Assembly (NCBI GenBank): GCA_947479815.1
Contig: CANKAT010000013.1
Location: 1 to 52,504, forward strand
DNA length: 52,504 nt
Source of the DNA: Sphingobacteriaceae bacterium
GTDB lineage: Bacteria > Bacteroidota > Bacteroidia > Sphingobacteriales > Sphingobacteriaceae
Direction of reading: 5' to 3'
This document shows positions 26,157 through 34,846 of this stretch, one piece after another (within the stretch, counting starts at the first letter, position 1; every line of letters starts with the position of its first letter). Made by a program: the position numbers and the translations under genes. The notes beneath the pieces are model-generated. The model did no database searches, was not told the origin of the DNA, and saw only the letters and a program-made list of their open reading frames with translations.

Positions 26157-27215
26157 TTAAATATTTTTGGCCAGCCAATCACCCACTTCAGTGGTTTTAT
26201 AAGCTTTATTCTTTCCGGCAATATCTTCGGTAACAATACCTTCAGCTAAAGATTTGTTTACTACTACACGAATCAGTTCTGCTTCTTCTTTTAATCCGAA
26301 AGCATCTTCAAACATCATAGCTGCCGAAAGAACAGTTGCCAAAGGATTAGCAATGTCTTTACCTGCAGCCTGAGGATAAGAACCGTGTATTGGCTCAAAT
26401 AAAGAAGTGTGTAGCCCGATTGATGCAGAAGGCATTAATCCCATTGAACCTGAAATAACAGAGGCTTCATCAGTTAAAATATCTCCAAACAGATTCTCAG
26501 TGATCATGACATCATAGGTGCTCGGCCATTGAACAAGGCGCATCGCTACAGCATCCACAAATTCGTAACTAACGGTAACTTCAGGATAATCTTTTTCCAT
26601 GTCTTGGACTGTTTCCCGCCATAAACGTGAACTTTCAAGAACATTGGCTTTATCTACACAGCAAAGTCTTTTACTTCTGTTCATCGCCATTTCGAAACCC
26701 AATTTTGCTAAACGGGTTATTTCATCGCGTGTATAGGTACAGGTATCGAAAGCTGTATTTCCATTATCTTTTCTTCCGCGTTCACCAAAATAAATTCCTC
26801 CTGTCAATTCACGCAGGATAATCAAATCAGTTCCTTCAATACGTTCTCTTTTTAATGGAGAGTTATCGATCAAGGAAGGAAAAGTAAAAGTAGGGCGAAC
26901 GTTTGCGAATAAGCCTAGTTTTTTGCGCATTTTCAAAAGACCCTGCTCAGGACGAACCGGCGCTTTTGGGTCATTATCATATTTAGGATCCCCAATAGCT
27001 CCAAATAGAATTGCATCAGCAGCCATACAAACTTCATGTGTTGAGTCAGGATAGGGCTCGCCACAGGCATCTATGGCACAGGCCCCAGTTAATGCAGAAG
27101 TCCAATTAATTTCATGACTAAATTTTGCAGCAATGGCATTACATACTTTAACAGCCTGATCAATTACTTCAGGGCCAATTCCATCTCCTGCTAAAAGGGC
27201 GATATTTAATTTCAT
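26157..27215 (-). CDS. leuB: 3-isopropylmalate dehydrogenase
   Basis: LeuB oxidises and decarboxylates 3-isopropylmalate with NAD in leucine synthesis; where a citramalate route exists it also acts on beta-methylmalate. The N-terminal GDGIGPEVIDQAVKV, the catalytic ELTGGIYFGERG region, the CVDKANVL stretch and the metal-binding NLFGDILTDEASVISGSMGL are all present. The 352-residue length is normal. It is the last gene of the ilv-leu run, and the space before it (155 bases to the cimA stop) is a composite repeat element whose 7-base array ends at its ATG. Confidence 0.95.
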   Translation of the reverse strand: MKLNIALLAGDGIGPEVIDQAVKVCNAIAAKFSHEINWTSALTGACAIDACGEPYPDSTHEVCMAADAILFGAIGDPKYDNDPKAPVRPEQGLLKMRKKLGLFANVRPTFTFPSLIDNSPLKRERIEGTDLIILRELTGGIYFGERGRKDNGNTAFDTCTYTRDEITRLAKLGFEMAMNRSKRLCCVDKANVLESSRLWRETVQDMEKDYPEVTVSYEFVDAVAMRLVQWPSTYDVMITENLFGDILTDEASVISGSMGLMPSASIGLHTSLFEPIHGSYPQAAGKDIANPLATVLSAAMMFEDAFGLKEEAELIRVVVNKSLAEGIVTEDIAGKNKAYKTTEVGDWLAKNI

Positions 27216-27373
27216 TTTTAAGTATTAAGTTCTAAGTTATAAGTAATAAGTTTTAATTAATAGGTTGAAACCTGATAGCTATCGGGTTGTATTTATTGAC
27301 TAATATTTAATGTTAATTGCATGATTTGAATACTAACCACTAACCATCTAACCACTAACCAACTACCCACCTA
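27216..27373 (-). repeat. Composite repeat element between cimA and leuB
   Basis: Read on the minus strand, the TAG stop of cimA is the first part of a GGTTAGT-type array (27331-27373). Then come a core with CAAATCATGCAATTAA (about 27302-27330), a near-palindrome CCCGATAGCTATCAGG (27271-27286), and an AACTTATTACTTATAACTT-type 7-base array that runs into the leuB ATG. The core differs from the one before hemL by one base in 20, and the order of the parts is the same. Confidence 0.88.
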
Positions 27374-28888
27374 AATAATATTAAGCATTTTCTGTGTCGA
27401 TTTTATCGCACAAACAGTTTGATCTGAATCCAGACCTCTAGTTATAAATTTCTTATTAGAGGTTTCCCAGGTAATAATTGTTTCACATAGTGCGTCCGAA
27501 TTACTTCCTGGTGCAATTCTAACCGCATAATCAATCAATTTTGGAAGGGATAACTGTTTTTTAGCATATACTTTAGCCAGTGCTTTCATAAATGCATCAA
27601 ACTGTCCATCGCCTTGAGCATTCTCTTCAAATAGCTCACCGTCAATTCTAACTGATATTGTGGCAGAAGGTCTTAGTCCTTTTGAATGCGTTAATACATA
27701 CGATTCGATTACAACCTTGTCAATAGTTAATGTGCTGTTTAATACATCAGAAATGATATACGGAAGATCTTCTTTCGTTACCGTCTCTTTCATGTCTCCT
27801 AGCTCAATAACACGCTGAGTTACTTTTTTTAAATCCTCGCCACTGAGTTTAAGACCTAATTCCTGAAGGTTTTTCTCAATATTGGCCTTTCCTGATGTTT
27901 TGCCAAGGGCATAGGTGCGTCTTCTGCCAAACCTCTCAGGTAGTAAATCATTGAAGTATAAATTATTTTTACTGTCCCCATCGGCATGAATGCCTGCTGT
28001 TTGAGTAAATACATTCTCTCCAACAATTGGCTTGTTTGATGGGATTCGGATACCAGAGAAAGTTTCAACCAATTTGCTGACCGTATAGATGGCTTCTTCG
28101 TTGATATTGATCTCTACTTCAGGCATAAAATCGTTAATGGTTGCTACCGCACTTGCGATAGAGGCATTGCCTGCCCTTTCACCCATACCGTTTACGGTTA
28201 AATGCAACCCGTTGGCACCTGCTCTGATCGCTTCTAAAATGTTTGCATTTGCGAGGTCATAATCATTATGAGCATGAAAATCAAAATGTATGCTTGGATA
28301 GCGTGATTTGATCTCAGAAATGTACTTATAAGTTTCATTAGGAGTCAATACTCCCAAGGTATCAGGCAACAATATCCTTTTTACGGGCTGTGTAGATAAA
28401 AAATCAAGATATTGATACACATATTCCGGTGAATTGCGCATGCCATTACTCCAGTCTTCAAGGTATACATTGCTTGAAATGCCATGGCTTTGTGCCAACT
28501 GTATGATATCCTTAATTTCTGAAAAATGTTGTTCAGGTGTCTTTTTAAGCTGGTGTATCAGATGGTTTAACGAACCTTTGGTTAATAAATTCTGCACTTT
28601 AACTCCTGCATTAGCCATCCATTCAACAGATACTCCATGATCAACAAATGAAAGCACTTCTATTTTGTTTGTGTAGCCATGTAAGTTGGCCCAGTCCATA
28701 ATAGTTTTAACAGATGTATACTCTCCTTCTGAAACCCTTGCCGAGGCAATCTCAACCCTGTCAACTTTGAGTTCTTCAATCAGCAGTTGAGTGATGGTTA
28801 GTTTTTCTGATATAGAAAAGGATACCCCAGATGTTTGTTCACCATCGCGGAGCGTAGTATCCATTATTTCTATTTTCCTTTTTTCCAT
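27371..28888 (-). CDS. cimA: (R)-citramalate synthase-like enzyme (second LeuA homologue)
   Basis: This 505-residue enzyme has the DmpG/LeuA-type barrel ([19 protein letters not shown]; metal-binding FDFHAHNDYDLANANILEAI; GMGERAGNASIASAVA) and a C-terminal regulatory domain (about 390-505). It is clearly not a duplicate of the neighbouring leuA. Segments such as VDRVEIASARVSEGE, NLLTKGSLNHL, NVYLEDWSNGMRNSPEYV and ERFGRRRTYALGK resemble, from memory, Leptospira citramalate synthase, which makes citramalate from pyruvate and acetyl-CoA for isoleucine. I chose the ATG at 28888 (MEKRKIEIMD), 16 bases after leuD; an earlier frame start at 28927 would overlap leuD and add unrelated residues. Substrate specificity is inferred. 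Confidence 0.78.
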   Translation of the reverse strand: MEKRKIEIMDTTLRDGEQTSGVSFSISEKLTITQLLIEELKVDRVEIASARVSEGEYTSVKTIMDWANLHGYTNKIEVLSFVDHGVSVEWMANAGVKVQNLLTKGSLNHLIHQLKKTPEQHFSEIKDIIQLAQSHGISSNVYLEDWSNGMRNSPEYVYQYLDFLSTQPVKRILLPDTLGVLTPNETYKYISEIKSRYPSIHFDFHAHNDYDLANANILEAIRAGANGLHLTVNGMGERAGNASIASAVATINDFMPEVEININEEAIYTVSKLVETFSGIRIPSNKPIVGENVFTQTAGIHADGDSKNNLYFNDLLPERFGRRRTYALGKTSGKANIEKNLQELGLKLSGEDLKKVTQRVIELGDMKETVTKEDLPYIISDVLNSTLTIDKVVIESYVLTHSKGLRPSATISVRIDGELFEENAQGDGQFDAFMKALAKVYAKKQLSLPKLIDYAVRIAPGSNSDALCETIITWETSNKKFITRGLDSDQTVCAIKSTQKMLNII

Positions 28889-28904
28889 TTGGATGGTCTT
28901 AATA

Positions 28905-29501
28905 TTATAAAGGAAGTTGTGAAGCAAATGCTTCTATTTCAGTTTTAATGTTTTGCAGGTAATCTATATCATCAAATCCATTGACCATATTATCTTTTTT
29001 GTAAGAGCTTATGTCAAATGTTTCTTTTTCTCCGGTTGATAGTATAGCGATACGCTGTTCTGGAAGATTAACTTCAATTTCAGTTTTAGGGTCGGCTTCA
29101 ATTGCCCGAAAGATTTTTTCGGCGAATTCTGCACTTACTTGAACAGGTAAAACTCCAATGTTCAGACAATTATTTTTAAAAATATCGGCGAAAAAACTTG
29201 ATACTACACATCTGAAGCCATAGTCATATACCGCCCATGCTGCATGCTCTCTGGATGATCCAGAACCGAAGTTCTTGCCACCGACTAGGATTTTGCCACT
29301 GTACAAAGGGTTATTGAGTACGAAATCTGATTTAGGTGTATGATCTGGATTGTATCTCCAATCGCGGAATAGATTATCCCCAAATCCTACACGTTCAGTA
29401 GCTTTTAAAAAGCGTGCTGGTATGATTTGATCAGTATCAACATTCTCAATTGCAAGAGGAACTGCGGTACTTTTTAATATATTGAATTTATCGTAAGCCA
29501 T
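28905..29501 (-). CDS. leuD: 3-isopropylmalate dehydratase small subunit
   Basis: LeuD forms the swivelling domain that completes the active site of LeuC. The 198-residue protein has [13 protein letters not shown], the substrate loop [15 protein letters not shown] and the [13 protein letters not shown] region, all typical. Its C-terminal tail ([20 protein letters not shown] then [12 protein letters not shown]) is of interest because a similar tail ends the degenerate LeuC-like protein at 32677-33678. It starts 32 bases after leuC and ends 16 bases before cimA. Confidence 0.95.
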
Positions 29502-29533
29502 TTTATTTTGTTTTTGCGAATGATCGCTTGTTA

Positions 29534-30928
29534 TTAAATAAGAGTTCTTGGATCAGTGACAACACCGGTAATGGCCGCTGCAGCAGCAACCAACGGACTA
29601 GCAAGCATCGTTCTTGAGCCTGGACCCTGACGGCCTTCAAAGTTTCTGTTTGACGTACTTACCGCATATTTTCCAGCTGGTATTTTATCGTCATTCATAG
29701 CAAGGCATGCTGAACAACCAGGCTGACGCAAGGTAAATCCGGCTTCATTTAAAATATCGAGTAATCCTTCCTCTTTTATCTGTGCTTCAACAATATGAGA
29801 TCCGGGCACAAGCCATGCAGTAACATGGTCGGCTTTTTTCTTGCCCTTTACAATGGATGTGAAAGCCCTAAAATCTTCAATTCGACCATTGGTACAGCTT
29901 CCAATAAATACATAATCTACTGGCTTACCCATCATTGATTCCCCTTCATTGAAACCCATGTAATTCAGTGATTTAGCATAAGATGCGGCTCCACCTTCCA
30001 CATCATTCGCGTTTGGAATGGAATGTGAGATTCCCATGCCCATTCCCGGATTGGTTCCGTAAGTGATCATAGGTTCAATAGAAGCACCATCATACGTGTA
30101 TTCAATATCGAAAATCGCATCTGAATCTGATTTTAACGATTGGTAATAAGCAAGGGCTTTATCCCATGCTTCGCCTTTCGGACTGAATTCACGGTCCTTT
30201 ACATAATTAATGGTTGTTTCATCAGGTGCAATCATTCCACCTCTTGCACCCATTTCTATACTCAGGTTGCAAACGGTCATACGACCTTCCATCGTCATAC
30301 TTTCAAAAACTTTACCTGCATATTCCACAAAATATCCGGTTGCTCCTGAAGTGGAAAGCTGAGATATGATAAATAAGGCAACATCCTTAGGGGTGACACC
30401 TTTTCCCAGTTGTCCGTTGATATTTATCCTCATTTTCTTTGGCTTCTCTTGCATGATACACTGAGTAGCAAGTACCATTTCAACTTCAGATGTACCAATT
30501 CCAAAAGCGATGGCACCAAAAGCGCCATGGGTTGATGTATGCGAATCACCACAAACAATCGTAGCCCCTGGCTGTGTAATGCCATATTCTGGTCCAACAA
30601 CATGAACGATGCCATTTTTTTGATGTCCTAATCCCCAGTAACTGATACCATATTCATTGGAATTTGATTCCAAAGCCTTCAACTGGTTCGCAGAAAGAGG
30701 ATCCTGAACAGGTAAATGTTGGTTAATGGTTGGAGTATTATGATCGGCTGTTGCGAAAGTACGCTTTGGGTATAAAACTTTGATACCTCTGCTTTTTAGT
30801 CCGAGGAATGCTACAGGGCTTGTAACCTCGTGGATGAGGTGTCTATCTATAAATAATACGTCGGGTCCGCCTTCAATCTTACGAACTACGTGAGTATCCC
30901 ACACTTTGTCAAACAATGTTTTGCTCAT
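29534..30928 (-). CDS. leuC: 3-isopropylmalate dehydratase large subunit
   Basis: LeuC carries the [4Fe-4S] cluster that isomerises 2- to 3-isopropylmalate, and with a citramalate synthase present it probably also processes citramalate. Cluster ligands are Cys345 ([13 protein letters not shown]) and Cys405/Cys408 (GCSACLAM), at the positions expected for the family. The active-site motif [19 protein letters not shown] is intact, and the 464-residue length is normal. It follows leuA by 155 bases containing a 7-base array and precedes leuD by 32. Confidence 0.96.
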
Positions 30929-30991: not shown

Positions 30992-31086
30992 ATAACCTAA
31001 AACTTATAACTTATTACTTATAACTTATTACTTACTACTTATTACTTACTACTTGTAACTTATTACTTACTACTTATAACTTATTA
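30992..31086 (-). repeat. Heptamer array between leuA and leuC
   Basis: On the plus strand the units read AACTTAT, TACTTAT, TACTTAC and TACTTGT in an unbroken 7-base rhythm. On the transcribed strand it is AAGTAATAAGT-like and begins inside the TAA stop of leuA. The remaining 60 bases before leuC carry no repeat. Confidence 0.85.
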
Positions 31087-32592
31087 AACAAACTTATTCA
31101 GCGCATCCACATAGGCATTTGCCGATGCTCGTACGATATCAGTACTAAATCCATAACCTACATATGATTTACCATCATTAGTAACTCGCATATCTACTTT
31201 ACTGACATCATCGCTTCCGCTATGAATTGCATGAATATTAAACTCTTTGATATTGAAGCTTTTGCCAATGATCTTTTCAATTGCTTTGATCGTAGCATCT
31301 ACTGGTCCGTTTCCGGTTGCAGTTGCTTCGTTATCGTTTCCTTTGTAGTTTAAAACTATTGTGGCCGTCGGGCTAGCCTGATCACCACATGCTACCTTCA
31401 AACTTTTGATAGCAAGACCATTTTTATAATTATTTTCAGACTCATGTCCCATCAGGAACAGGATGTCATCATCCTTGATCTCTTTTTTGCCATCTGCCAG
31501 TGTAAGAAATCGTTCGTAAACCTGATCCAAGTCAATACGGTCAATAGTATAGCCCAGACGTTCTAGATGATGATTTAATGCATGACGGCCACTTCTGGCA
31601 GTTAATATAATCTCTGACTGGTCAATACCAACATCTTCAGGATTAATGATCTCATAGGTTTCTCTATGTTTTAACACACCATCCTGATGAATCCCTGAAC
31701 TATGTGCAAATGCATTTTTGCCTACGATTGCCTTATTGGGTTGAACGGGCATACGCATCATTCGGCTAACCATTCCACTCAGCTCATATAAATGCTTACT
31801 GTTCACTTTATGAGTAAATTTGAGGCTGTGATGAGTTTTAAGGATCATTACAATTTCTTCCAATGCAGTATTTCCTGCACGCTCTCCTATACCATTGATA
31901 GTACATTCTACCTGGCGTGCGCCATTTTGAATACCAGCAATGCTGTTCGCTGTAGCCAAGCCCAGGTCATTATGGCAATGCACCGAAATAATAGCTTGAT
32001 CGATATTTTTAACATTTTCTTTTAGAAATCGGATCTTTTCGCCGTATTGTTCTGGCAGGCAATATCCATTAGTATCGGGGATATTCACAACAGTAGCACC
32101 TGCTGCGATCACAGCTTCCACCATTTTTGCCAGAAATTCATTATCTGCTCTACCTGCATCTTCGGCATAGAACTCAATATCTTCAACAAAACTCTTGGCA
32201 TATTTTACCGAATCAACCGCACGTTCAAGTATTGCTTCACGAGTACTGTTGAACTTGTATTTTATATGATTATCGGATGCACCTATTCCAGTATGTATAC
32301 GTGGTCTTTTTGCAAATTTTAAAGCTTCTGCAGCACAATCGATATCTCCTTTATTAGCTCGTGTTAACGCACAGATCACAGGTTCACGCACGGCTTTTGA
32401 AAGCTCCAGTACACTTTGAAAATCGCCGGGACTTGAAATAGGGAATCCCGCTTCAATAACATCAACGCCCAGATTTTCTAGTGCCTTGCCAATTTCGATT
32501 TTCTCTACTGTTGATAGCTGACATCCGGGTACCTGTTCTCCATCCCTTAGGGTGGTGTCAAAAATATAGATGCGGCTTGGGTCGTGTAACAT
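31084..32592 (-). CDS. leuA: 2-isopropylmalate synthase
   Basis: LeuA joins acetyl-CoA and 2-oxoisovalerate, the first step of leucine synthesis. The 502-residue protein has [17 protein letters not shown], the metal-binding [34 protein letters not shown] and a C-terminal leucine-binding regulatory domain (about 385-502, with [12 protein letters not shown]). The full regulatory domain suggests feedback inhibition by leucine. It starts 84 bases after the LeuC-like gene. Its stop codon is the first part of a 7-base array. Confidence 0.95.
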
Positions 32593-32676: not shown

Positions 32677-33678
32677 TTAATCCTCATTAAATATTTTATA
32701 ATCCTTTGAATGTTCAAATTCTTCAATATTTTCAAGTCTGCTTAACAGGTAATCAGTATCGTTATATCCTGATAAAATAGCAGAAGTATCGAATGCAATC
32801 ATCCCTGTATTCTGAAGATTTGATTTTGACTGCATAAGTTTTGATAATCCGATACCATAGTTACCTATGCCAATATCTTCTGCATCGAATTCAAGAACCT
32901 CATCAAATACAGCACGATCATCTGAGAATAGTTCACTTTGATATGCGATATCTTTATTAACTGTTTCCATCATTGTGCAGTTTTTTTGGATAAAAGCAAA
33001 TGTTTTTTCATCTGGTGCTATAAGCCCTCCGAGTGCACCAATTTCTCTACTCATTTTACAAATGGTCATTCGGCCCTCAATGTCTAAATTGAGAATGGTG
33101 TCACCGGCATACTCAATAAAATAGCCATTAGCACCATCTGCAGCAATCTCTGACAATAGGTAATGGTTAATATCCTTTGCTTCAAGACCTTTAGCAAGTT
33201 TGCCGTTAACCTCTATTTTCATTCGTTTAGGTTTATGGATCAGCATACATTGAGTAGCAAGAACTTGTTCTACGTGTAATTCACTTATTCCAATAGCAAT
33301 CGAACCTAATGCACCTAAAATATCTGAAAATTGTTTATCACATACAATTGTTTGTCCGGGATAACTAACGTATGGAAATAACTGGTCAAAACGAAGCCGT
33401 TCTATTTTGTTTAAGTTGAAATCATTGCAGTTCCTATTTAGCATGTCAAGCTGAAAGCGTGCCAGCTCGCTTAGAGGAATGTGCTGATTTTTATCAGTAA
33501 TTACACTTGTTTGCTTGGGTCTGTATACAGGAATTTGTCGTTTACGTAAGCCTTCAAAAGCTGCCAGACTCGTTATTTTATTGATCAGGTGTGCATCAAT
33601 ATATAAGGTGTCCGGAAAACCTGCATCGCTGCTCACTACGTGCTCACTCCATATCTTATCAAACACTGTTTGTGCCAT
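32677..33678 (-). CDS. Degenerate LeuC-like protein with LeuD-like C-terminal tail (probable pseudoenzyme)
   Basis: Residues 1 to about 286 align with LeuC domain I: AQTVFDKIWSEHVVSSDAG at the start, EVNGKLAKGLEAKDIN, DGANGYFIEYAGDTI and EGRMTICKMSREIGALGGLI. The active-site motif GDSHTSTHG is replaced by CDKQFSDIL, and the parts that would carry the three iron-sulfur cysteines are missing. Residues 287-333 (TGMIAFDTSAILSGYNDTDY, then LLSRLENIEEFE) resemble the tail of LeuD, not LeuC. The 333-residue frame has no internal stop or frameshift, so it is probably expressed and under selection, but it cannot be a dehydratase by itself. It could regulate, scaffold or replace a subunit of LeuCD. A 17-bp hairpin lies 18 bases before its start. 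Confidence 0.85.
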   Translation of the reverse strand: MAQTVFDKIWSEHVVSSDAGFPDTLYIDAHLINKITSLAAFEGLRKRQIPVYRPKQTSVITDKNQHIPLSELARFQLDMLNRNCNDFNLNKIERLRFDQLFPYVSYPGQTIVCDKQFSDILGALGSIAIGISELHVEQVLATQCMLIHKPKRMKIEVNGKLAKGLEAKDINHYLLSEIAADGANGYFIEYAGDTILNLDIEGRMTICKMSREIGALGGLIAPDEKTFAFIQKNCTMMETVNKDIAYQSELFSDDRAVFDEVLEFDAEDIGIGNYGIGLSKLMQSKSNLQNTGMIAFDTSAILSGYNDTDYLLSRLENIEEFEHSKDYKIFNED

Positions 33679-33695
33679 AGTTTGTAGGGTATAAA

Positions 33696-33793
33696 TTGTA
33701 AGTTTTAAGTTTAGGGCAGTGGTGCTGAAACTTAAAACTTACAACTTATTACTTCTCACTTATTACTTCTCACTTATTACTTCTCACTTTCTA
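33696..33793 (-). repeat. Heptamer array and 17-bp perfect inverted repeat between ilvC and the LeuC-like gene
   Basis: TTGTAAGTTTTAAGTTT (33696-33712) and its exact complement (33728-33744) flank a 15-base loop, giving a hairpin in the polycistronic message. Beside it, at 33745-33793, runs a 7-base array (CACTTAT, TACTTCT on the plus strand). On the transcribed strand the last codons of ilvC, GAG AAG TAG, match the array unit GAGAAGTAATAAGT, so the array begins within the gene's end. Confidence 0.9.
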
Positions 33794-34846
33794 CTTCTCA
33801 GGTTGATTTTCAGGGCGTAAACTTCTTACCGCCTGACCTGCTTGCCAGATTTCACTATCATGAAGAGTTTTTAATTCAGCTTCAAGTTTTACTCGGTAAT
33901 CAGGCTGGCTGTTCAATTTAATAGTACGCTCAGCTTCTTTTCCTGATGCCACACTCTCGTATAGTTCATCAAAAACTGGCTGGGTTGCATCACGGAAACG
34001 ACCTTTCCAATCAAGTGCTCCACGTTGTGCAGTTGTTGAACAATTAGCATACATCCAATCCATCCCATTCTCTGCAACTAAAGGCATTAAACTTTGAGTA
34101 AGTTCTTCAACAGTTTCGTTGAAAGCTTCAGAAGGTGAGTGGCCATTTCTGCGCAGTGTATTGTACTGTGCTTCGAAGATACCGGCAATAGCGCCCATCA
34201 AGGTACCACGCTCACCAGTTAGATCAGAGTATACTTCTTTACGGAAATCAGTTTCGAACAAATATCCTGAACCAACTCCAATACCTAGTGCGATTGCACG
34301 TGTTCTTCCATTACCAGTTGAATCCTGATGAATTGCAAAAGAAGAGTTAAGACCTTTGCCAGCTAAGAAAAGACGACGCAATGAAGTGCCTGATCCTTTT
34401 GGTGCAACTAATATTACATCAACATCAGCAGGAGGTATGATTCCTGTTTGTTCTTTATAAGTGATACCGAATCCGTGTGAAAAGTAAAGCGCTTTTCCGG
34501 GAGTAAGGTATTTTTTGATTGTTGGCCAAAGTGCAATTTGACCAGCATCTGATAATAGATATTGAATGATTGTACCTTTTTCAGCCGCTTCTTCAATTTC
34601 AAACAGAGTTACTCCAGGTACCCATCCATCCGCGATAGCTTTGTCCCATGTTTTGGAGTCTTTACGCTGACCGATAATTACATTGATACCGTTGTCGCGC
34701 AGGTTTAATGCTTGCCCCGGACCTTGAACCCCATAACCAATAATTGCTACGGTTTCATGCTTTAAAACTTCACGAGCTTTGTCTAAGGGGAATTCTTCGC
34801 GGGTTACTACCTCTTCTACAACCCCGCCGAAATTGATCTTTGCCAT
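33791..34846 (-). CDS. ilvC: Ketol-acid reductoisomerase
   Basis: IlvC isomerises and reduces 2-acetolactate or 2-aceto-2-hydroxybutyrate with NAD(P)H. The 351-residue protein has the dinucleotide motif GYGVQGPGQALNLRDNG followed by the cofactor loop GQRKDSKTW, and the metal-binding region SDLTGERGTLMGAIAGIFEA. Length fits the short class I form. The Arg and Ser residues in the loop suggest NADPH preference, an inference. The last residues (PEK) are encoded by bases that belong to the neighbouring array. Confidence 0.95.
   Translation of the reverse strand: MAKINFGGVVEEVVTREEFPLDKAREVLKHETVAIIGYGVQGPGQALNLRDNGINVIIGQRKDSKTWDKAIADGWVPGVTLFEIEEAAEKGTIIQYLLSDAGQIALWPTIKKYLTPGKALYFSHGFGITYKEQTGIIPPADVDVILVAPKGSGTSLRRLFLAGKGLNSSFAIHQDSTGNGRTRAIALGIGVGSGYLFETDFRKEVYSDLTGERGTLMGAIAGIFEAQYNTLRRNGHSPSEAFNETVEELTQSLMPLVAENGMDWMYANCSTTAQRGALDWKGRFRDATQPVFDELYESVASGKEAERTIKLNSQPDYRVKLEAELKTLHDSEIWQAGQAVRSLRPENQPEK

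Follow-up and report, generated by a model that had tools for sequence, protein, structure and literature searches.

In the window, by which we mean the whole stretch of 52,504 nucleotides analyzed here, the ilv-leu gene run of a Daejeonella genome carries a gene (psC) for a LeuC-LeuD chimeric protein. This protein is most likely a pseudoenzyme, since its catalytic residues are lost in all ten intact orthologues and its amino acid sequence is under purifying selection. Pseudoenzymes are usually thought to arise via duplication and point mutation. psC is unusual in its origin, because it is most likely a deletion fusion of the two subunits of an enzyme that was replaced. Among the papers listed for isopropylmalate isomerase and its inactive paralogs, leuC pseudogenes, aconitase pseudoenzymes and Daejeonella, there was none with a title or abstract opening that describes such a LeuC-LeuD protein.

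The gene order of the run is ilvD-ilvB-ilvN-ilvC-psC-leuA-leuC-leuD-cimA-leuB, and psC and its surroundings are made up as follows:

32677-33678, minus strand: psC, 333-residue LeuC-LeuD chimeric pseudoenzyme; intact reading frame with ATG start
33791-34846, minus strand: ilvC, upstream neighbor of psC in 10/10 genomes with intact psC
31084-32592, minus strand: leuA (2-isopropylmalate synthase), downstream neighbor; TIGR00973 680.4 bits, above the cut-off of 598.7
29534-30928, minus strand: leuC of the second set, complete and with every motif; NF004016 709.8 bits, above the cut-off; dN/dS 0.02
28905-29501, minus strand: leuD of the second set; TIGR00171 182.1 bits, above the cut-off
27371-28927, minus strand: cimA-like (citramalate synthase-like) gene of the second set; best match NF042433 with 688.9 bits, below the cut-off of 950
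26157-27215, minus strand: leuB of the second set; 50-61% identical to leuB at seven loci outside the psC clade and 92-100% inside it

The leu genes were named from profile matches and gene order, and ilvD, ilvB, ilvN and ilvC carry the names suggested by homology. We use the name cimA because of the best-matching family, although the score is under its cut-off, and because of the exchange of ilvA for cimA described below. An earlier note made from the sequence had reported an intact frame between ilvC and leuA, and we found this frame with 333 residues, an ATG start and the flanking genes as claimed. The same note had held that psC does not replace LeuCD, which agrees with the full second leuC and leuD in the run. 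On the opposite strand across psC, we did not find any frame of 100 or more residues, which rules out an overlapping antisense gene of that length as origin of the constraint on psC. An assembly artefact is unlikely since there are ten intact copies, three of which come from records with titles not marked as MAG (L064, L070, L071). If the listed TTG start of cimA is right, leuD and the cimA-like gene overlap by 23 bases (28905-28927). In 11 of 13 other genomes, the cimA match starts at residue 6-16 (at residue 1 in G008 and G016), suggesting that the true start lies more internally.

When the psC protein was compared with known families, its N-terminal part matched LeuC. It shares 37% identity with the LeuC of the window over 338 aligned columns (BLASTP 5e-73) and matches PF00330 (Aconitase) at profile positions 1-287 of 463 with 175.5 bits (gathering score 28.7, E 2.5e-51). 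The LeuC family models match only up to about residue 270, and the scores are far under the family cut-offs (236.7 of 510 bits for NF004016 and 210.1 of 560.25 for TIGR00170). psC is nearer to the LeuC of G005, G012, G013, G015 and G021 (47-54% identity) than to the LeuC encoded in its own run (about 40%). For a residue-level comparison, the ten psC proteins were aligned with 11 LeuC rows (six from ancestral-type or outgroup loci and five of the second type), and the following parts were defined:

32830-33678, minus strand: LeuC-derived part, residues 1 to about 283 (aconitase domains 1-2), from Pfam Aconitase profile 1-287, the alignment with 11 LeuC rows and the comparison of the model with 4kp1
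33481-33495, minus strand: site of the lost LeuC DHN.PT loop (residues 62-66); 3-5 residues missing in the psC rows inspected, LeuC H63 and N64 absent from 10/10
33364-33399, minus strand: site of the lost LeuC GHP.QGIVHV.GPE loop (residues 94-105); deletion of 7-8 residues with the rest scrambled, LeuC 106-109 and 112 absent from 10/10
33316-33342, minus strand: former CGDSHTSTH motif, replaced (residues 113-121); 0/9 LeuC-invariant positions (LeuC 126-134) invariant in psC
32863-32868, minus strand: site of the deleted LeuC MITYGTN loop (residues 271-272); seven LeuC-invariant residues (287-293) absent from 10/10 orthologues
32875-32910, minus strand: segment with its own constraint, residues 257-268 (VFDEVLEFDAED); 11/12 columns invariant in ten psC rows and 1/12 in 11 LeuC rows
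32689-32802, minus strand: LeuD-derived tail, residues about 293-330 (GYNDTDYLL core), from a profile match to the LeuD C-terminus

In LeuC numbering, the lost catalytic loops are DHN.PT (62-67), GHP.QGIVHV.GPE (100-116), CGDSHTSTH (126-134) and MITYGTN (287-293), and three of the four were hit by in-frame deletions that are common to all ten psC proteins. Everything beyond LeuC residue ~305 is absent from all ten orthologues, including the cysteine region. In the LeuC alignment, the cysteines C346, C406 and C409 (numbering of the G013 protein) are invariant, and we take them to be the ligands of the [4Fe-4S] cluster. Likewise, the GDSHTSTHG motif and the DHN and GIVH loops are presumably the catalytic parts of LeuC. 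The absence of GDSHTSTHG and of the cluster cysteines, which the earlier note had read from the window, was thus confirmed for all ten orthologues. Its further claim that psC cannot isomerize isopropylmalate alone holds in the sense that psC lacks what the known isomerase chemistry needs: the loops and the cluster-cysteine region are lost, and catalysis by the known mechanism is therefore not possible. Thus, psC resembles LeuC (TIGR00170, NF004016) in that its first ~283 residues are homologous and have a similar predicted fold, but it differs from LeuC in having no cluster cysteines, no catalytic motif, no TYGTN loop and no domain 3.

Constraint on the remaining part is unevenly distributed. 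Among the 139 LeuC-invariant columns, 48 are unchanged in all ten psC proteins, and the better-kept stretches are 1-20 (5 of 8 invariant columns), 161-180 (5/8), 221-240 (9/15) and 261-280 (3/3). On the other side, 53 columns are invariant in psC and variable in LeuC, one of them being the start methionine, which is missing from one outgroup row by extraction. Four additional columns are invariant within psC and within LeuC but carry different residues in the two groups. The psC-only invariant columns and the tail motif point to a constraint of psC's own, in a comparison that is uncorrected for rate between groups that differ in age and rate.

The C-terminal end of psC is related to LeuD. A C-terminal profile of the ten orthologues aligned with the LeuD profile over 39 columns (hhalign probability 94.8%, E 5.4e-8). 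When a tail HMM was used, all 27 LeuD rows (21 genes, six of which were entered twice) outranked all 4,599 shuffled or reversed decoys, with E-values of 6.6e-9 for the best row (LeuD of G013) and 0.0028 for the LeuD of the window. A profile was needed here because BLAST of psC against the LeuD of the window alone was blind to the tail (best E 0.61, elsewhere in the protein). The psC proteins read GYNDTDY at the core of the tail (GHNDTDY in G018), and the LeuD rows that were inspected have G-x-DDID-[YF]. LeuB was rejected as source of the tail, since LeuB rows were present in the searched set and the best 30 rows consisted of the 27 LeuD rows followed by three shuffled decoys. psC is similar to LeuD (TIGR00171) in that about its last 40 residues come from the LeuD C-terminal segment, but the swivel domain with its GSSRE motif is absent; a search with Aconitase_C gave no match up to E 1. 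Taken together, LeuC homology in the N-terminal part and a short LeuD tail, seen by profile-profile comparison and by the tail HMM, bear out the chimera that had been proposed for this frame. For the proposed domain limits (1-286 and 287-333), the two-part make-up stands but the exact borders do not, since LeuC ends at about residue 283 and LeuD starts at about residue 293.

AlphaFold2 modeling of psC yielded a first model with a pLDDT of 50.8, which matched 4kp1 over 149 residues (Z 13.9). For the second model, two LeuC rows from outside the genus were added to the input and three near-duplicate LeuC rows were dropped. Scans of viral contigs for extra LeuC/LeuD rows had returned 1, 0 and 2 loci, and the 1-locus result was left unused. 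The second model reached a pLDDT of 63.4 overall, with 81-93 at residues 151-230 and 89-90 at residues 251-270 (blocks of ten). Low zones were residues 11-100 (mostly 33-67) and residues 275-333 (nearly all below 50). Its best structural match was 4kp1, an isopropylmalate isomerase large subunit (Z 23.7, rmsd 3.4, 265 residues, model residues 2-277), and the model thus predicts that the fold of aconitase domains 1-2 is present in psC. By sequence, we did not find any solved bacterial LeuC chain, and the best chains were archaeal large subunits. In seven rows of mitochondrial aconitase, the aligned range ends at psC residues 306-308 and at chain residues 737-748 of 753-754, which is the C-terminus of the swivel domain; these numbers are end points only. 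They hint that the LeuD tail, which lies in a low-confidence part of the model, may sit where the end of the small subunit normally docks.

Of 20 Daejeonella genomes, 10 encode an intact psC, and the nine other proteins are 58-89% identical to that of the window. Among ten named records with psC, nine have it in full length, including the intact copy of Daejeonella lutea DSM 22385, and one has the remnant of G011. In G010, the gene carries one frameshift, which is possibly an assembly error, and in G001 psC is gone and there is no such frame between ilvC and leuA. G016 was not scored as a loss because its contig starts between psC and leuA. Since three genomes of the clade have lost the gene or have it only in a short or frameshifted form, psC is not strictly essential. 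In G011 (L059, 8444-8758), one in-frame internal deletion leaves 105 codons with the first ~37 residues and the LeuD-like tail (GHNDTDY). This short gene may either be a minimal form made by nature or mark the beginning of gene loss. In G004 and G014 (the latter 68% complete), searches for LeuC (E 1e-20), ilvA and cimA all gave no match, and these two may be leucine and isoleucine auxotrophs.

To search more widely, the tail profile was run against 399 genomes of the family (genus included). Here, E-values of 1.2e-26 or lower were obtained only in 12 genomes, all of Daejeonella; the next value among the matches listed was 7.7e-14, and the others listed lie in frames of 466-510 residues, which are full LeuC proteins. 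Of 148 sampled genomes of the phylum, 46 gave a match, and every match other than psC lies in a frame of 465-526 residues. Thus, a second LeuC-LeuD remnant outside the psC clade was not found among the matches listed for the 399 family and 148 phylum genomes.

To quantify selection, one codon model was fitted to the ten intact genes, which gave a dN/dS of 0.13 and a log likelihood of -6791.5 compared with -7286.5 at dN/dS 1 (difference 495). Five pairs with low synonymous divergence yielded dN/dS values of 0.065-0.234, and 0/100 bootstraps reached 1 in each of them. Many pairs are saturated at synonymous sites, and the frame has therefore been open for a long time. Constraint is moderate, since the dN/dS of psC is about six times that of the neighboring LeuC (0.13 vs 0.02). 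For the earlier note, orthologues that are absent or randomly broken in relatives would have meant a decaying pseudogene; we found ten intact orthologues under purifying selection, which speaks against decay for the clade as a whole, although the gene was lost, shortened or frameshifted in three genomes.

Private changes were counted in the neighboring proteins. LeuD has six of them in G001, G010 and G011 vs three in the ten psC genomes, and cimA has 17 in the same three genomes vs 16 in the nine psC genomes with data. G010 accounts for four of the six LeuD changes and also shows 11 in ilvD; G001 accounts for nine of the 17 cimA changes and also shows eight in ilvB. Because these two genomes are also raised in ilvD or ilvB, the counts may reflect branch length, and there was no clear signal of relaxed constraint of the neighboring proteins in the genomes that lack psC.

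The origin of psC can be read from gene order. In G005, G012, G013, G015 and in G021, which belongs to another genus, the order is ilvC-leuC-leuD-leuB-leuA (the contig of G005 ends inside ilvC). In G005, G012, G013 and G015, ilvA follows directly behind leuA and each genome has one full LeuC. In the psC clade, psC is the only gene between ilvC and leuA, and leuA is followed by a distinct leuC-leuD-cimA-leuB set. When one family model was used as ilvA probe (TIGR02079, E 1e-60), ilvA was found in 4/4 genomes of the ancestral type and in 0/14 of the psC clade. The cimA-like gene has the opposite distribution (0/4 and 13/14), and in the 14th psC-clade genome (G007) the contig ends inside cimA. 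As a separate observation, the isoleucine route was apparently switched within one genus (window 26157-30928, loci L043-L059).

In a tree of six other genes from 19 genomes, the 14 genomes of the psC clade form one side of a branch with an SH-aLRT of 100. This tree comes from a quick search with no bootstrap, and the rows of G005, G016 and G017 cover less than half of the columns. In the LeuC tree, all psC proteins group together (100/100), and their long branch is separate from the two LeuC types. Since they are not nested in the ancestral type there, descent from ancestral-type LeuC rests on identity and position. From these data, the origin of psC appears largely resolved: it would be a leuC'-'leuD deletion fusion in the slot of the ancestral leuCDB. 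Most simply, the fusion occurred once, by deletion, in the stem lineage of the clade, and the gene was lost or decayed afterwards in G001, G011 and perhaps G010. We infer that leuB was removed in the same or in a second deletion. psC apparently arose on the branch on which isoleucine synthesis went from threonine deaminase to citramalate. One genus thus likely holds the states before and after, a leuC-leuD-leuB block and one fused, catalytically dead and conserved frame.

Since psC is conserved inside the ilv-leu run, has kept its fold and has its own constraint, a binding role is suggested. We tentatively favor, as a possibility that stays somewhat short of an even chance, that psC is a pseudoenzyme in which the LeuC core is closed by its own LeuD tail and which is predicted to bind an enzyme of a leucine or citramalate step. 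According to this proposal, the second leuC-leuD-cimA-leuB set would have come to lie behind leuA in the ancestor of one Daejeonella clade and ilvA would have been lost. The old leuC-leuD-leuB block between ilvC and leuA would have collapsed by deletion, which would have fused leuC codons 1 to ~305 in frame with roughly 40 codons from the end of leuD. What disappeared were the catalytic loops and the domain that bears the cluster, and purifying selection has acted on what was kept, the LeuD tail and the LeuC fold of domains 1-2. The tail might pack in cis on the LeuC core to give a self-closed LeuC-like core. This core might bind one of the enzymes that LeuC usually encounters, with LeuB or LeuC itself as the best candidates, and psC would then act as scaffold or modulator in the isomerase and dehydrogenase steps common to leucine and citramalate-derived isoleucine.

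There is a precedent for binding of LeuC to the next enzyme of the pathway. In Arabidopsis, LeuC binds isopropylmalate dehydrogenase according to two-hybrid, co-immunoprecipitation and BiFC data, and the two-hybrid assay of that study did not detect LeuC-LeuD binding (PMC7876033). Because of this interaction, LeuB comes first among the candidate partners of psC, followed by LeuC or LeuD, but the Arabidopsis complex involves a full large subunit, whereas psC is a stump. As a more specific version, psC may be a third, non-catalytic subunit that apportions the common isomerase and dehydrogenase to leucine and isoleucine synthesis, with LeuCD serving two substrates after the rerouting via citramalate. 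We consider this version distinctly unlikely; if it were true, psC would be a regulator made by deletion of an enzyme and not by duplication. If a role is confirmed, psC would be an example of gene replacement giving rise to a non-catalytic subunit, and it may point to a second function of LeuC that catalysis masks in other cases.

Other roles have to be weighed against binding of a pathway enzyme. psC may have acquired a new ligand-binding or catalytic function unrelated to LeuCD, with a metabolite bound by the retained domains 1-2 and psC working as sensor or new enzyme. The 53 psC-only invariant columns (the start methionine included), the 11 of 12 at residues 257-268 and the four columns with group-specific residues would fit such a function. 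However, inspection of psC did not reveal a recognizable catalytic or cofactor motif, and its constant position between ilvC and leuA in 10/10 intact genomes favors a role in that pathway, so that we regard a new function as rather unlikely. According to the idea of the earlier note, psC could bind LeuD or LeuC directly and limit LeuCD assembly as a decoy or assembly factor. This appears unlikely, although psC has parts of both subunits and sits in the same run as leuC and leuD. In the aconitase fold, the LeuC active-site loops face the small subunit, and these loops are the segments that psC is missing. Moreover, the LeuD tail may fill psC's own docking site in cis, as the low-confidence model suggests, and the LeuC part is only 40% identical to the LeuC that it would have to mimic. 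From IRP1, a non-catalytic task is known for an aconitase protein that has no cluster, and by the model psC has the same fold as aconitase and IRP1. By analogy, psC might be an RNA-binding autoregulator of the ilv-leu run. The IRP1 chains solved with RNA are close to the psC model (3snp, Z 20.4; 3sn2, Z 20.2), as are all aconitases, and there is a hairpin just upstream of psC in 10/10 intact genomes. However, IRP1 keeps all four domains and can switch, and much of its RNA contact runs through domains 3 and 4, whereas psC has only domains 1-2 and no cluster-binding part. Hairpins of other sequence occur at this position in G001 (no psC) and G013 (ancestral type), but not in G012 and G015, and the stem motif of the window recurs at 11 sites of the genome; RNA binding is thus very doubtful.

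Two further explanations involve no function of the protein, and we give both of them hardly any weight. If psC were a decaying pseudogene whose frame is open by chance, the frameshift in G010 (where an assembly error is possible), the cut to 105 codons in G011 and the missing gene in G001 would fit. However, a dN/dS of 0.13, the lnL difference of 495 and ten open frames despite saturated synonymous divergence in many pairs are at odds with decay, which the codon model refutes for the clade as a whole. The frame might also be a translated spacer whose protein sequence does not matter and which only serves to hold ribosomes on the mRNA from ilvC to leuA; its place inside the run and the short in-frame version kept in G011 would fit. 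Against this stand the constraint at the amino acid level, with dN/dS well below 1, and G001, which does without any such frame there. Binding of a leucine or citramalate-step enzyme by a self-closed LeuC core stays our tentative proposal for psC.

The hairpin upstream of psC lies between ilvC and psC at window positions 33691-33749, with a 22-pair stem and an RNA fold z of -4.9. In the nine other genomes with intact psC and in G010 and G011, hairpins with partly different stems are predicted at the same place (z -2.6 to -7.5, single-base shuffles). At this place, G001 (z -7.1) and G013 (z -7.3) have hairpins of other sequence, and G012 and G015 have none. The stem motif AAACTTAAAACTTACAACTTATAAC was found at 11 sites of the genome with up to two mismatches, including window positions 33688-33712 and 33728-33752, and the reversed pattern gave 0 sites. 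These sites represent a dispersed AT-rich repeat family.
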